Source of the DNA: Streptomyces celluloflavus
Lineage (GTDB): Bacteria; Actinomycetota; Actinomycetes; Streptomycetales; Streptomycetaceae
NCBI GenBank assembly: GCA_000720995.1
Contig: JOEL01000043.1
Location: 1-55,016, forward strand
Direction of reading: 5' to 3'
Length of the DNA stretch: 55,016 nt
The notes under the pieces were generated by a model. The model saw nothing but the letters and a program-made list of their open reading frames with translations, had not been told where the DNA came from and searched no databases. This document shows, one piece after another, positions 50,182 to 55,016 of this stretch. Position 1 is the stretch's first letter, and the number at the start of each line of letters is the position of its first letter. A program made the position numbers and the translations under genes.

Positions 50182-50643
50182 TCAGATGTCCTCCGCTTGC
50201 CGTGCGAGTTGAGTGTCCAGGGTGGAACGCAGTTGGGCCAGGACGGCTTCGAGCTGATGAAGCAGCTCGGGCGGGTGCTGGGACAGGACGGCGTCCTGGC
50301 GCGCGTTGACGGGGCCGAAGAACGCGTCAGCGCGTTCCTTGACCTGGGGGGTGCTGCGCAGGGTGACGATCCGCCGGTCGGTGTGTTCGCGGGTGCGGAT
50401 GACGTACCCGGCCCGTTCGAGGCGGTTGAGCAGTGCGGTCATGGCCCCCGATGACAGTGAGATGCGACCGCTGAGCAGAGCTGGGGGCAGCGGGACGAGG
50501 GCTGCACGCCGCCCGAGTTGGCCTGTGCGCTCGACCGGGATGTCCCGTCCGCGCAGCTCCATCTCAATGCGGCGCATCAGCAGGCTCTTACCGGTGGAGT
50601 GGGCCCCCATCACGCCTATGCGGATGAGGTTCGATGGTGTCAC
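50182..50643 (-). CDS. chimera of P-loop nucleotide kinase front and MarR-family back
   Basis: 153 residues. Residues 1-50 are the start of an AAA_28-type P-loop NTPase (IGVMGAHSTGKSLLMRRIEM with Walker A GAHSTGKS, then RTGQLGRRAA). From about 52 the sequence changes to the back of a MarR regulator (SLSSGAMTALLNRLERAGYV, then EHTDRRIVTL). The kinase catalytic body and the MarR first helices are both missing. The frame is kept across the junction. GTG 50643 overlaps the exonuclease stop (GTGA), so it is the operon's original last gene, truncated by a deletion fused to MarR. Function doubtful. Confidence 0.75.
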   Translation of the reverse strand: MTPSNLIRIGVMGAHSTGKSLLMRRIEMELRGRDIPVERTGQLGRRAALVPLPPALLSGRISLSSGAMTALLNRLERAGYVIRTREHTDRRIVTLRSTPQVKERADAFFGPVNARQDAVLSQHPPELLHQLEAVLAQLRSTLDTQLARQAEDI

Positions 50644-51242
50644 CACAGGGTGGGCTCCTGTTCTGGTTCGGGGGATCCGGGCAGGCCGGGCGGGACAGCG
50701 GCGGCCACGAGCTGTTCCCAGCTCTCGTAGTGGCTGGCCATGGCGATGAGGAGCTGGGCGGTCGCGTACGCGTCGAACGTCGCGCGGTGACGGTGCGCCG
50801 GAGCTTGGCTCAGATCCGGCGTCTCATGCTCGATCAGGGCGTCGAGGCTGTACTTGTGCAGATCCCGGTAGGTGGCCTTGGCCAGCCGTAGCGTGTCGAT
50901 GACTCCGGCCGGCTGCCACTGCGGAAGGTGCGCGGACAGGACGCGGTAGTCCACATGCGCGTTGTGGGCGGCGATCCATGCGGTGCCCAGGCACGCGTGG
51001 ACCGCGTCCTTGATCTCCTCCCACCCCGGCTTGTCGTCGAGCATCTGGTTGGTCAGGCCGTGCACCCGAGCCGCGAAGGGCGTGACGGGGCGGTTCGGCT
51101 TGGTCAGCCAGGCGCCGGCGGTGCTCTTGTCGGGCTGCCCGTCGAGTAGGGGGAGCGCAGCCACCTCGACCAGGTCGGGCGGGTTGCATCCGTTGCCCTC
51201 GACATCGACAACCAGGAGCGTGGGCCAGGAGGAGAAGTTCAT
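50640..51242 (-). CDS. DEDDh 3'-5' exonuclease (RNase T/DnaQ type)
   Basis: A 200-residue exonuclease domain. Metal and catalytic residues: Asp13 and Glu15 (VVDVEGNG), Asp98 (AHNAHVDYRVL), His152 and Asp157 (HRATFDAYAT). It has no polymerase or other domain attached. ATG 51242 overlaps the radical SAM stop by 4 nt. In this operon it may degrade oligonucleotides containing, or lacking, the modified nucleotide; it could also be housekeeping-type repair. Substrate unknown. Confidence 0.88.
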   Translation of the reverse strand: MNFSSWPTLLVVDVEGNGCNPPDLVEVAALPLLDGQPDKSTAGAWLTKPNRPVTPFAARVHGLTNQMLDDKPGWEEIKDAVHACLGTAWIAAHNAHVDYRVLSAHLPQWQPAGVIDTLRLAKATYRDLHKYSLDALIEHETPDLSQAPAHRHRATFDAYATAQLLIAMASHYESWEQLVAAAVPPGLPGSPEPEQEPTLW

Positions 51243-52417
51243 GCGGCCGGTGTTCCGTCCTCCGCCTCCCAGCCGATGGCGGCTCGGCCGTGCTGGCGGT
51301 AGTGGTGAGGCTTGGCTCGGTCGTGGCACTGGTAGCCGAAGCCGTGCTGGAGGTAGTAGCGCGGCGGTTCGTCCAGTCCCTCCACGACGATGGCACGCTC
51401 GTTGACCTCGACCGAGCCGGTCGCCCCGAGTCCGCGCGCCTCTTGTGTGACGGCCGTCAACTCCGGCTTGACCCAGGCGGCCTGGCACTTCGCGATCTGC
51501 TCGGGCGGGCAAATATCGCACAGCTCGCGGATGCCGTAGTGACCGTTGTAATCAGCCTCTCCATGCGCGTACGCGACACCGCAGGAGGTCTTGCGGAACA
51601 GCGCCCCCCATGATGAGTCGTGCTCGAAGGCGTCGAGTATGCGTTGCTCTGCGGCCTCGGGCATGATCTTCCGCCGGGCCGTGTCCTCATAGGGCATCTC
51701 CAGGCCGTGCGCCTCGTAGTACTCGGCGATCTCCTTGCGGAAGAACAGACCGGTGAAGACCGTGGCGTGCGCGTGCTGGGACAGCTCGTGGGCGCGAGCG
51801 ATGTCGGTGTCGGAGTCGTTGAGGCCGGGAACAATGGGCCGCCAGTACAGGACGGTGCGGTACCGCTCGGCGTGCTCGTACAGGGTGCGCAGGCTCGCGG
51901 CAGCGATGTAGCTGTCCACAGGCTCGATCCGCTCGTCCTGGATGTTGGAGTGCGTCACCAGCACGGTCAGGCGCAGGTTCGTGAAGCTGTTGAGGACGGC
52001 GCAGTCCTCCGGATCGACGCGCCACCTGGTGATGATCAGGACATGGTTCGTCAGGCCCTGATCATCGAGTTGCCGCAGGACGTTGAACAGGTGCGGCTTG
52101 ACGACGGGCAGCATCGGGTCGGTGGCCCGGTTCAGGAGCTGGATCGGTGTCTTGTGCGGGCGGAAGTAGCTGTGACCCACGAGGCGGCGCACGGCTTCCT
52201 CGTCGCTCATCAGGCGCCGCGGGACCTTCATCTCGAAGTTCTCGAAGGTGTGACGGATGCAGTACCCGCACTCCAGCGGGCAGCCGATGATCCAGTTCAG
52301 CGAGAGTCCCGACTTGCGGTACTCGATCACCTCGGCAAGTTCCTGCTTCAGGCCACTGATCTTGTCCGGGGAGAGGATCGGCAGGGCCCGGCCAGCGCCA
52401 GGCATGGGGATGCTCAT
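51239..52417 (-). CDS. radical SAM enzyme, SPL-like, with extra C-terminal Cys cluster
   Basis: A 392-residue radical SAM protein. The [4Fe-4S]-SAM motif CX3CX2C is Cys46-Cys50-Cys53 (WIIGCPLECGYC). The barrel continues with LNRATDPMLPVV and LIITRWRVDPEDC. After the barrel comes C-X20-C-X2-C-X7-C (SCGVAYAHG to IAKC), suggesting an auxiliary Fe-S cluster. Overall it resembles spore photoproduct lyase-like/SplB proteins but is not a certain member. ATG 52417 follows GGAG by 8 nt; 19 nt separate it from the NDK stop. In this operon it could alter the nucleobase or sugar of the modified nucleotide. Confidence 0.85.
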   Translation of the reverse strand: MSIPMPGAGRALPILSPDKISGLKQELAEVIEYRKSGLSLNWIIGCPLECGYCIRHTFENFEMKVPRRLMSDEEAVRRLVGHSYFRPHKTPIQLLNRATDPMLPVVKPHLFNVLRQLDDQGLTNHVLIITRWRVDPEDCAVLNSFTNLRLTVLVTHSNIQDERIEPVDSYIAAASLRTLYEHAERYRTVLYWRPIVPGLNDSDTDIARAHELSQHAHATVFTGLFFRKEIAEYYEAHGLEMPYEDTARRKIMPEAAEQRILDAFEHDSSWGALFRKTSCGVAYAHGEADYNGHYGIRELCDICPPEQIAKCQAAWVKPELTAVTQEARGLGATGSVEVNERAIVVEGLDEPPRYYLQHGFGYQCHDRAKPHHYRQHGRAAIGWEAEDGTPAA

Positions 52418-52436
52418 AAGGGGCTCCAGGGGTAGG

Positions 52437-53474
52437 TCAGGCGTCAGCGGGCGTGCTCGGTGCCGGGAGATCCGGGGCGAGGAGGTTACGACGGCCGGCC
52501 CCGTACCAGGTGCCGAAGTCGCGTCGGGCCGCGTCGGGGTCGTCGCTGGTGTGGACGAGGTTGTGCACGAGCCGCTTCTCGGCGAGCGCGGCGCTCAGGC
52601 TGTCGTCACCGAGATCGCCGCGGATCGTGCCGGCGGCAGCCTTGGTGGGGTCGTAGTGCCCGAGCAGGTCGCGCAGTCTGGTGTGCACACCCGGCTCGCC
52701 GTGGGCGAGCGCGACGGTGACCGAGCGTCCCGCGTATGCCTCGTCCAGGCACGCCGGAATGTTCCGGTCGGGGAACCAATCACGGTCCACCAGAAGGTCC
52801 CAGTAGTGCACGTGGACCTGCCACGGCTGCACGGTGACCTCACGCCGATTCGTGATCGTGGCGCCTTCGGCGGCGATCCGTTCGAGGACGGCATCGACCA
52901 GGCCGCGCTCCACCGCGTCGGGTTTGCACAGGATGACCGAGCAGCGGTTGAAGTCGGAGACCTTCAGGGCCCGTCCGGGGCCGTACCAGGTGCCGAACTC
53001 CCGGCGGGCCGCGTCGGGGTCGTCGGAGGTGTGCACGAGGTTCCTCACGAGCCTGCCGCCTCTGTCGGCAGCCGGCACACTGTCCTGGCCGAGGTCGCCG
53101 CGGATCGTGCCGGGCACGGCCTTGGTGGGGTCGGTGTGCCCAATCAGGCGCCGCAGCCGGGTGTGGATGTCGGGCCCACCGTGCGCGAGGGCCACCGTGA
53201 TGGGCTGTCCCACGTACGCGTCCTCGATGCGCGCGGGCAGATCCGCGGGGAAGTGGCCCGGGTCGGCGAGCGTGTCCCGGTAGGCGACGTGGGCCTGCCA
53301 CGGTTCGGCGACCAGGTCCGTACGTGCATGGACAGAGACGCCGGCGCTCTCAATCCGTTCGAGGACGGCATCGACCAAGCCGCGCTCCACCGCATCGGGC
53401 TTGCACAGGACGACGGCCCAGCGATCGAAGTCGATGCCCTCGACAACGGCGCCGGACGGCGGTTTGCGGCTCAT
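52437..53474 (-). CDS. tandem nucleoside diphosphate kinase (two domains)
   Basis: 345 residues containing two NDK domains (about 15-170 and 178-335). Each has KPDAVERGLVDAVLERI, GTIRGDL and NLVHTSDDPDAARREFG, that is the ATP Lys, the phosphate Arg and the catalytic phospho-His (equivalent of His118). Each has a 9-residue insertion between GTIRGD and the catalytic motif compared with ordinary NDKs. The loop Thr (GHTDP) is Tyr in domain 2 (GHYDP). A two-domain fused NDK is unusual. ATG 53474 overlaps the stop of the TS-like gene. Makes nucleoside triphosphates. Confidence 0.9.
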   Translation of the reverse strand: MSRKPPSGAVVEGIDFDRWAVVLCKPDAVERGLVDAVLERIESAGVSVHARTDLVAEPWQAHVAYRDTLADPGHFPADLPARIEDAYVGQPITVALAHGGPDIHTRLRRLIGHTDPTKAVPGTIRGDLGQDSVPAADRGGRLVRNLVHTSDDPDAARREFGTWYGPGRALKVSDFNRCSVILCKPDAVERGLVDAVLERIAAEGATITNRREVTVQPWQVHVHYWDLLVDRDWFPDRNIPACLDEAYAGRSVTVALAHGEPGVHTRLRDLLGHYDPTKAAAGTIRGDLGDDSLSAALAEKRLVHNLVHTSDDPDAARRDFGTWYGAGRRNLLAPDLPAPSTPADA

Positions 53475-54493
53475 CGGGAACCCTCCGTGGTCGCGCAGGC
53501 CGCCCACTTGTGCCCGAGGAGCCACCGCAGGCCGGGGTGCAGCGCATCGAGCACGTCGCGGCTGACCTTGTCGGTCTCGTCATGCTGGAGCTGGCGATAT
53601 ACCTCGAACAGCAGCACCACCTGCTGCCAGTAGGTGTCTACGTCCAGACGGGCGATCTCGTCGGCGGAGTACTTCACCGCGTTGGTACGCAGCAGCTCTT
53701 CGTGCTCCAGAAGCCGCTTGATGGTGTCGGGGCCCGTCTCCACGGACATCGAGGGAAAGGGGAACACGGGCGGTGTGCGGCGCAGGTCCGCCTCGTTGAG
53801 AACCCGTTTGACTCGTTCGACGTTGCGCTCGTTGACGTGCGCCGAACCGATCGTGTGGGTGTAGTGGCCCAGTTCGAGACCGAGTCGGATCGCGGCGTAC
53901 TCCTGAATCATCGTGAACGAGAACACGTCGGACAGGAGCCCGCAGTCGAGGTCGTTGGCCCGCATGTTGCACACCATGTGCAGGCGTCCGCCGCGGGCGA
54001 GGAGGTGGAGGCCGGCCAGGCACGCCATATCGGGGTTGTGGTCGATGGCCAGTTCGGCGGCCGAGAACACCGGGAGGTACCCGCGCTTGCTGTCGGGCTC
54101 GGTGCGCAGCAGTTCCAGCACCCGGGCGAAGGGGGACTCGGTGTCCCCATCGGCCGGATTGAAGAGGGTGTGGCCGTAGGCAGACCCGCCGAGCGTGATG
54201 CCGTCGGCGGAGCTGGCGCGCATCGACGGCGCGTAGTAGCCGATCATCTCCAGGTCTCGGCGGCCGGCCAGGTACCAGAGCGCTTCAGCGAACTGGAAGA
54301 CCGGGTTGGCCTTCCGCACCGCGATGTAGGGCAGCCGCTGGCGCGGGTCCGGCAGCCGGAAGCTGACTCCGACTACCTCGCGGGCATCGTTGCCTCGGGC
54401 CGTGATGCGGTACTCAGGCCCTTCGCAGGCCAGTCGCAGCAGGTCGAGATAGGCGCCTTCGACGGTGCGATATGTGGGTGCGGTGAGCATCAT
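53471..54493 (-). CDS. thymidylate synthase-fold enzyme, predicted (d)CMP hydroxymethylase
   Basis: A 340-residue TS-family protein (numbered from ATG 54493; ATG 54490 has better ribosome-site spacing). Aligned ungapped from the catalytic Cys, Cys158 (E. coli Cys146), Arg178 (Arg166), Asp181 (Asp169) and His219 (His207) are conserved, Asp189 replaces Asn177, and Asn221 replaces Tyr209. Glu70 (Glu58) lies in FAEALWYLAG. Asn177 to Asp is the change that makes TS-fold enzymes accept cytidylates, as in T4 dCMP hydroxymethylase and MilA. Promoter-proximal gene of the operon visible here. Confidence 0.9.
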   Translation of the reverse strand: MMLTAPTYRTVEGAYLDLLRLACEGPEYRITARGNDAREVVGVSFRLPDPRQRLPYIAVRKANPVFQFAEALWYLAGRRDLEMIGYYAPSMRASSADGITLGGSAYGHTLFNPADGDTESPFARVLELLRTEPDSKRGYLPVFSAAELAIDHNPDMACLAGLHLLARGGRLHMVCNMRANDLDCGLLSDVFSFTMIQEYAAIRLGLELGHYTHTIGSAHVNERNVERVKRVLNEADLRRTPPVFPFPSMSVETGPDTIKRLLEHEELLRTNAVKYSADEIARLDVDTYWQQVVLLFEVYRQLQHDETDKVSRDVLDALHPGLRWLLGHKWAACATTEGSR

Positions 54494-54776
54494 CTCTCCA
54501 GGTCAGCGGACAGTCGGAGGACGGCTGATGGACTAGGGGTCGTGCTCTGCGCTGGAACCACCCGACGACCTGGGCTCGCAACTCCAGGCCGCCGAGCGGC
54601 GGTCCAGGCAGCCGGTACGAGATCGTGCAGGTCGACGACCTGATAGCCCTTCAGCTTCCGAACAAGCCGGGAAGCGAAGAACCAGCCGATCTGGGGGTGG
54701 CTGCAAGGGAGGGGTGAATCAACGCCCGAGAGGGCTTGGACGCCGTCGAGACGGCTCCGCTGGTAGGCGGTGCCGA
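54494..54776. promoter_or_regulatory. intergenic leader of the TS-NDK-rSAM operon, with a palindrome
   Basis: A 283-nt gap between a broken small ORF and the TS-like gene. CAGGTCGACGACCTG (54628-54642) is a perfect 15-bp palindrome about 135 nt upstream of the TS start. A GGCGG/CCGCC hairpin lies near 54590-54605. One minus-strand frame is open but shows no family, so it is treated as non-coding. It probably holds the operon promoter. Confidence 0.4.
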
Positions 54777-54907
54777 TCACTCCGCAGAGGGGGCTTCGGC
54801 GATTTCGCCACTCGGGGCCTTGGCGCCCACGGGATCGCCGAATTCGGAGTAGGTGATGACTGGGAGGTCGGGGGCGGTCGAGGCGGCTTTGCGTGGGCAC
54901 CGCTCAC
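54777..54907 (-). pseudogene. small ORF with a 1-nt frameshift
   Basis: GTG 54907 overlaps the stop of the partial upstream gene (GTGA), which suggests translation coupling. It starts MSGAHAK, but the protein-like continuation (PDLPVITYSEFGDPVGAKAP then EIAEAPSAE and stop at 54777) is in another frame. Restoring one A in the AAA run near 54889 would give one 43-residue frame. It is a broken gene or an error in a homopolymer. A small effector or precursor peptide is possible but unsupported. Confidence 0.35.
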
Positions 54908-55016
54908 TCTTTCGCCACCTCGATCGCTTCGGGGTCCGTCGTCCACTCCACGCCGCCGGTCACGGGCGCAAGCCACGCCACGGGGGGCGTGTCGGGAACC
55001 TTGATCACGAGGCCGG
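54904..55016 (-). CDS. partial C-terminus of an unidentified protein, cut by the right edge
   Basis: The last 36 residues of a minus-strand gene (VIKVPDTPPVAWLAPVTGG, then EWTTDPEAIEVAKE and stop). It looks coding, but no family can be named from the end alone. Its stop overlaps the next start, so the operon may extend beyond this window. Confidence 0.5.
   Translation of the reverse strand, partial: GLVIKVPDTPPVAWLAPVTGGVEWTTDPEAIEVAKE

Follow-up and report, generated by a model that had tools for sequence, protein, structure and literature searches.

Gene content and organization of the locus

In this study, we analyzed a five-gene operon of Streptomyces celluloflavus that encodes a thymidylate synthase (TS)-fold enzyme, a nucleoside diphosphate kinase (NDK), a radical S-adenosylmethionine (SAM) protein, an exonuclease and the remnant of a P-loop kinase. 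The operon lies on a stretch of 55,016 nucleotides (nt) (GenBank assembly GCA_000720995.1, contig JOEL01000043.1; hereafter the window), which is one entire contig (C43) of the 8.68-Mb genome. The features of the locus are as follows:

53471..54493, minus strand: TS-fold gene, predicted MilA-type cytidine monophosphate (CMP) 5-hydroxymethylase (PF00303, 1e-16; complete open reading frame, ORF)
52437..53474, minus strand: double NDK (two PF00334 stretches, 1.6e-39 in all)
51239..52417, minus strand: radical SAM protein with a CxxxCxxC motif (weak PF04055 match, 0.0092)
50640..51242, minus strand: stand-alone DEDDh 3'-5' exonuclease (RNase_T, 2.7e-15)
50485..50646, minus strand: P-loop kinase stub (thymidylate-kinase/NadR-fold), first 54 residues (part of the ORF 50182-50646)
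50182..50484, minus strand: MarR regulator, C-terminal half only, joined in frame to the kinase stub (PF01047, 4.9e-8)
54607..54801, minus strand: C-terminal end of the regulator-cassette protein c13, broken in the window (61% over 65 amino acids to the protein of locus L041)
54868..55016, no strand assigned: repeat at the contig end, common to contigs C67 (99%) and, in part, C25 (91%)

The close packing of the five minus-strand genes given in the preliminary description was confirmed: as read from the sequence, the successive junctions are a 4-nt overlap, a 19-nt gap, a 4-nt overlap and, according to the GTG start chosen for the final gene, 4 or 7 nt. All genes are intact except the last, which had been described simply as a truncated P-loop gene. 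The truncation stands, and the intact form in relatives is a thymidylate-kinase/NadR-fold protein, but the gene in the window is a chimera of a 54-residue P-loop stub and a MarR half. The suggestion that the front of the operon lies beyond the right edge was not supported, since the TS-fold gene is complete and is preceded by the broken end of c13; in relatives, mostly regulators and small proteins are found before the TS-fold gene, and c13 often precedes the operon. With only the tail of c13 and a contig-end repeat upstream, and the P-loop/MarR chimera downstream, the locus is cut at both flanks, yet every enzyme gene from the TS-fold gene through the exonuclease gene is complete. No further match to the operon kinase family was detected in the same genome and no operon-type aldo/keto reductase match in the window; this copy has lost the rest of the kinase and the reductase and is probably decayed.

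Conservation of the operon and of an older core

With the radical SAM protein as query, 45 loci were found in 84,980 species genomes, and their genes were then called and clustered by blastp. The linkage counts are conditional on the radical SAM gene used to find the loci, and only loci with enough DNA were counted. In every locus counted (44/44), including those of alphaproteobacteria, the radical SAM gene was followed by the exonuclease; its other partners were the kinase (36/44), aldo/keto reductase (31/44), NDK (32/45), TS-fold gene (29/43) and c8, a protein of no known family (18/43). The usual actinobacterial operon consists of TS, NDK, radical SAM, exonuclease, P-loop kinase (c4), aldo/keto reductase (c5) and c8, and its gene order is far beyond chance. 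The same families co-occur in relatives, so the refuting condition named in the preliminary description, that homologues never occur together elsewhere, does not apply. The intact kinase of relatives shows the thymidylate-kinase/NadR fold and a Walker A motif, and in some loci its place is taken by true members of the thymidylate kinase family. In Myceligenerans (L070:5965-7728), a thymidylate-kinase-family domain and the aldo/keto reductase form a natural fusion.

Both TS and NDK were absent in alphaproteobacteria (L074-L078) and basal actinobacteria (e.g. L069, L070 and L073). No MilA-type family match was found anywhere in the genomes of Thalassospira and S. lushanensis, and the one TS match in that of Myceligenerans was distant (2.2e-16). 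In a tree built from 51 radical SAM proteins, the TS label needed 3 changes versus 12.6 after shuffling (0/500 as low), so the TS-NDK pair was probably gained once and lost now and then. This pair is an actinobacterial addition to an older core lacking both, which combines a DEDDh exonuclease with a predicted nucleotide kinase and a radical SAM enzyme tentatively likened to spore photoproduct lyase (SPL). Distances between the parts rose together in all 10 pairs tested (r 0.62-0.93; 0/500 permutations), to which host kinship contributes.

Some individual copies deserve mention. The radical SAM gene of a Nocardia plasmid (L085:8944-10140) is divided between two ORFs, and this copy may thus be broken as well. 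As annotated, the radical SAM genes at L118:10121-11083 and L087:9121-10083 begin too late to include about 40 codons containing CxxxCxxC; homology begins at the match start. In plasmids of S. anthocyanicus and SYP-A7193 (L101:2616-10373, L102 and L089), MilA, NDK and radical SAM are replaced by a glycosyltransferase, a left-handed-helix transferase, a class II aldolase, a MurA-like enzyme and a distant radical SAM protein. On pFRL3 (L099:12406-18582), preQ0-type genes, two thymidylate kinases, a radical SAM gene and an aminotransferase lie near a kinase-reductase pair, an arrangement that resembles a deazapurine nucleoside cluster.

Predicted properties of the enzymes

A profile of 14 operon-linked TS-fold proteins matched MilA, the CMP 5-hydroxymethylase of mildiomycin biosynthesis, at 2.4e-112 and 2.8e-111 among PDB sequences (5jnh best), whereas the next solved family was matched at 2.4e-20 and the T4 deoxycytidylate hydroxymethylase (1b49), far more distant than MilA, at 2.5e-11. 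On this basis the protein is assigned to the MilA family, being closer to MilA than to thymidylate synthases. In the structural account of MilA, Lys133 and Ala176 are tied to the preference for CMP over dCMP and Asp186 to cytosine, the deoxyribose-type T4 enzyme having Ser169 and Arg123 where MilA has Ala and Lys; the sugar hydroxyl held by Tyr218 is the 2'-OH in MilA but the 3'-OH in the T4 enzyme and TS (PMC5175136). The 45 operon-linked rows that we aligned include, besides the window, two partial copies of its locus and probable duplicates between two genome sets. Among the readable ones, the equivalents of Cys155 (43/43), Lys133 (43/43), Asp186 (44/44), His216 (44/44) and Glu68 (43/43) were invariant, and that of Ala176 was Ala in 42 and Gly in 2 of 44. 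The window protein retains C158, K136, A179, D189, H219 and E70, and has Asn221 at the Tyr218 site.

The preliminary description had read a cytidine-nucleotide hydroxymethylase from the sequence, which agrees with the MilA-type assignment and with the cytosine-type Asp in all 44 rows. Its parallel with the T4 route to hydroxymethyl-dCTP was rejected. That route shares a TS-fold enzyme with the cytosine Asp, followed by kinase steps; the operon residues, in contrast, are ribo-type, with Ala or Gly and Lys in the operon-linked rows where T4 has Ser169 and Arg123, the T4 sequence is much more distant, and the core exists without TS and NDK. The protein also differs from MilA itself (PDB 5jnh and 5b6d), which belongs to the same TS subfamily but to a different operon. 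The Tyr218 equivalent was lost in all 44 readable linked rows (Asn 31, Gly 9, Arg 2 and Cys 2), whereas 16 of the 18 rows not seen linked had Tyr, the others having Ser, in one partial row, and Asn, in L019, a contig-edge row that is perhaps linked to the operon. Because of this loss we claim membership of the MilA family but not MilA's exact substrate; the substrate of the operon enzyme may be a cytidine ribonucleotide, perhaps sugar-altered. A separate TS-like family was observed in 15 Streptomyces loci (L023-L037). It has the cytosine-type Asp but Arg/Gly, and is flanked on one side by a protein of no known family and on the other by a NodU/TobZ-type carbamoyltransferase (PF02543, 1.3e-41); its product is perhaps a carbamoylated hydroxymethyl nucleotide.

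The double NDK, the extra cysteines of the radical SAM protein and the stand-alone exonuclease noted earlier were all recovered. Both NDK halves in the window keep the catalytic N-L-V-H-T-S-D, and the active site N-L-[VIM]-H-[TSA]-S-D was present in all aligned proteins (17 loci and the window); double and single forms were similarly frequent (21 and 22 of 43 rows). The radical SAM protein contains the CxxxCxxC cysteines C46, C50 and C53 and four additional C-terminal ones, C279, C300, C303 and C311, all invariant in 25 of 25 aligned rows. The latter four probably bind a second iron-sulfur cluster. In the comparison with known families, SPL, pyruvate formate-lyase (PFL)-activase and LipA tied. 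The protein had no sequence relative among solved structures (the sole match, with E 0.8, was to an 85-residue protein), and neither the NCBIfam viperin model nor the PADLOC models were matched at 0.1. It represents a radical SAM family without an assigned function in the libraries searched.

Mobility, rarity and defense neighborhood

The radical SAM protein was matched in 40 of 72,556 plasmid records, from Streptomyces, Nocardia, Rhizobiales, Gluconobacter and Nostoc. Seven IMG/VR contigs also encoded it, and on two of them (L113 and L111) genes for head, packaging or tail functions are present. Despite these contigs, we rejected a phage origin for the Streptomyces operon, as none of the 50,697 INPHARED phage records matched the protein at E 0.01. 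Among sampled genomes, no match was found in 345 other Actinomycetota or, with the radical SAM profile, in 397 other Pseudomonadota, and only 14 of 295 Streptomyces genomes, including that of the window and two partial copies, had a TS match of at least 56%. The core of radical SAM, exonuclease and kinase is therefore rare and mobile, moving between unrelated bacteria on plasmids and phages.

We then considered the surroundings of the core in 16 alphaproteobacterial plasmid records. Organism and identity divide these records into seven groups, each represented among the eight regions that were read. Genes that matched defense models or were so annotated were present within 10 kb of the core in all seven groups. 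According to annotation, CBASS genes (patatin-like phospholipase, DncV-like nucleotidyltransferase and ThiF) are immediately upstream of the core in S. meliloti, Shedu and ABC-three-component genes are near it in S. chiapasense and Rhizobium, and an anti-phage dGTPase, an ATPase-helicase pair and a TIR protein in A. vitis. PADLOC models identified a Hachiman-type HamB helicase on the opposite strand 25 nt from the kinase in Mesorhizobium (7.5e-45), a type IIG restriction-modification enzyme near the core in Labrenzia (6.8e-28) and the candidate system PDC-S37 about 6 kb away in Gluconobacter (4.8e-238). The phage contig L113 has the core on the same strand as SIR2 (7.9e-94) and HerA (5.2e-177), 21 nt after them and opposite to the structural genes, and in L112 DpdJ-like (4e-38) and DNA-methylase-like proteins are encoded upstream. 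The S. chiapasense island also carries a 7-cyano-7-deazaguanine synthase with XRE and PIN genes (L114:15619-17001).

To compare these neighborhoods with other parts of the plasmids, complete non-core neighbors from seven regions were set against stretches of the seven plasmids that lie half a record from them. At 1e-15, 155 PADLOC models were matched in 93 test genes (140 kb) versus 55 in 120 control genes (147 kb). Among the 25 families listed for each set, test models included Gabija A and B, CBASS, IetA, dGTPase, Shedu, Lamassu and Thoeris, and control models were mostly PDC-M02A/B paralogues, AbiEi, SoFic and mad3. An excess of defense-model matches over control regions was thus observed, for the alphaproteobacterial plasmids only.

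Proposed function and alternative explanations

Because plasmids and phages carry the operon, frequently next to known antiviral genes, an antiviral system seems probable. Our favored reading, which we hold with about as much confidence as doubt, is that the operon is the actinobacterial form of a mobile, undescribed anti-phage system acting through a modified nucleotide; no description of this gene set was noticed among the papers found in an open-licence library, which mostly excludes subscription journals and preprints. We infer the substrate, the product and the antiviral action as follows. In the Streptomyces form, the MilA-type enzyme would convert CMP, or a sugar-altered CMP, to 5-hydroxymethyl-CMP. 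The radical SAM enzyme would alter the nucleotide by radical chemistry, perhaps at the sugar, and the thymidylate-kinase-fold kinase, together with NDK in actinobacteria, could produce the di- and triphosphate. Phage polymerases might then take up the triphosphate and be blocked, by analogy with viperin. The exonuclease may clear the analogue from host nucleic acid or recycle it, and the aldo/keto reductase (an HD protein in rhizobia) may finish or limit the product.

Prokaryotic viperins are radical SAM enzymes that make an antiviral nucleotide in the cell, and are often encoded beside a nucleotide kinase. The likeness lies in the proposed logic of a radical SAM-made antiviral nucleotide with a kinase neighbor, whereas the operon differs by the C-terminal four-Cys motif and by its exonuclease, MilA and NDK partners. 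Membership of the viperin family was rejected on the lack of matches to the viperin and PADLOC models. More tentatively, we propose a second, independently evolved viperin-like immunity, in which an SPL-like radical SAM enzyme with a second cluster would act with a kinase and a proofreading-type exonuclease, and for which the Streptomyces branch would have enlisted NDK together with a CMP hydroxymethylase whose sugar pocket is altered, yielding a 5-hydroxymethylcytidine analogue. The diDNases are likewise stand-alone DEDD nucleases encoded on mobile islands near phage-defense genes, but they are NrnC-like, and the cited passages mention no radical SAM partner (PMC11706625).

Several observations weigh against the defense reading. 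The structure model of the radical SAM protein is weak around the cluster loop (predicted local distance difference test score under 50 at positions 47-57), the Walker A lysine pattern is absent in 3 of 34 kinases (L047, L060 and L065), and in L099 and L100 the kinase and reductase are paired in the absence of the radical SAM gene. The PADLOC figures are models per gene set, not assigned to single genes, and since control regions also match 55 models, it is enrichment rather than presence that carries the argument; mobile regions gather all kinds of cargo. By annotation, 11 Streptomyces plasmid regions (L088-L090, L097-L103 and L119) contained toxin-antitoxin genes and regulators and no named defense system. 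In three loci an ABC transporter gene is immediately downstream, which would suit a secreted product. The regulatory and exonuclease-kinase-reductase genes also border different chemistry on Streptomyces plasmids, namely genes for a glycosyltransferase, an aldolase, a MurA-like enzyme and a distant radical SAM protein, and the exchange of payloads in biosynthetic cassettes fits these flanks.

The last two observations keep alive the reading that the operon is a nucleoside-antibiotic cluster, in which radical SAM and kinase would make an exported sugar-altered (hydroxymethyl)cytidine against competitors, with the exonuclease as self-resistance. Elsewhere, the same flanks hold a nucleotide-sugar dehydrogenase and a dioxygenase, and MilA itself serves a nucleoside antibiotic, mildiomycin (PMC5175136). 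The nearest worked example is thmA-C of Photorhabdus, whose three genes, for a radical SAM enzyme, a nucleoside kinase and an NTPase, yield 4'-thiothymidine when expressed in Escherichia coli (PMC12691670). By description, both are small mobile sets with a radical SAM gene beside a kinase and a pyrimidine nucleoside target; thmA-C differs in that thmC is an NTPase and, as far as the cited description goes, in having no exonuclease, NDK or TS. On the other hand, the proteobacterial forms sit in a defense-island context, NDK within the operon suggests a triphosphate used inside the cell, and an obvious exporter is absent at most loci. Moreover, a piece of the radical SAM 3' end persists ahead of the exonuclease in the MurA loci, so the new chemistry there looks like a payload replacement and not proof that the parts cooperate. 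We regard an antibiotic cluster as less likely than defense, but these two, both listed among the options of the preliminary description, now lead. A third reading, modification or repair of DNA or RNA, is improbable: an SPL-like enzyme would act on nucleic acid, trimmed by the exonuclease, with hydroxymethylcytosine entering RNA or DNA, but PFL-activase and LipA tie with SPL, the MilA-type residues favor CMP over dCMP, the conserved set is without a polymerase, glycosylase or DNA-modification partner, and the core occurs without MilA. Ordinary pyrimidine metabolism, with a second thymidylate synthase and NDK adjoining other genes by chance, could account for the TS fold and the kept NDK active site. 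It is hardly credible in view of the conserved linkage, the rarity of the set and the loss of Tyr218 in linked but not in most other rows, and thymidylate synthesis was rejected by the MilA-family match and residues, including Asp for Asn.

If the operon is a nucleoside-antibiotic cluster instead, it would be a widespread and unmined one. If the favored antiviral reading is correct, the system would add a nucleotide-based antiviral chemistry that operates through a radical SAM family hitherto without assigned function, and would offer a natural enzyme set for new nucleotide analogues. It would then become testable whether viperin-like immunity arose more than once in bacteria, and why a defense operon would hydroxymethylate CMP.

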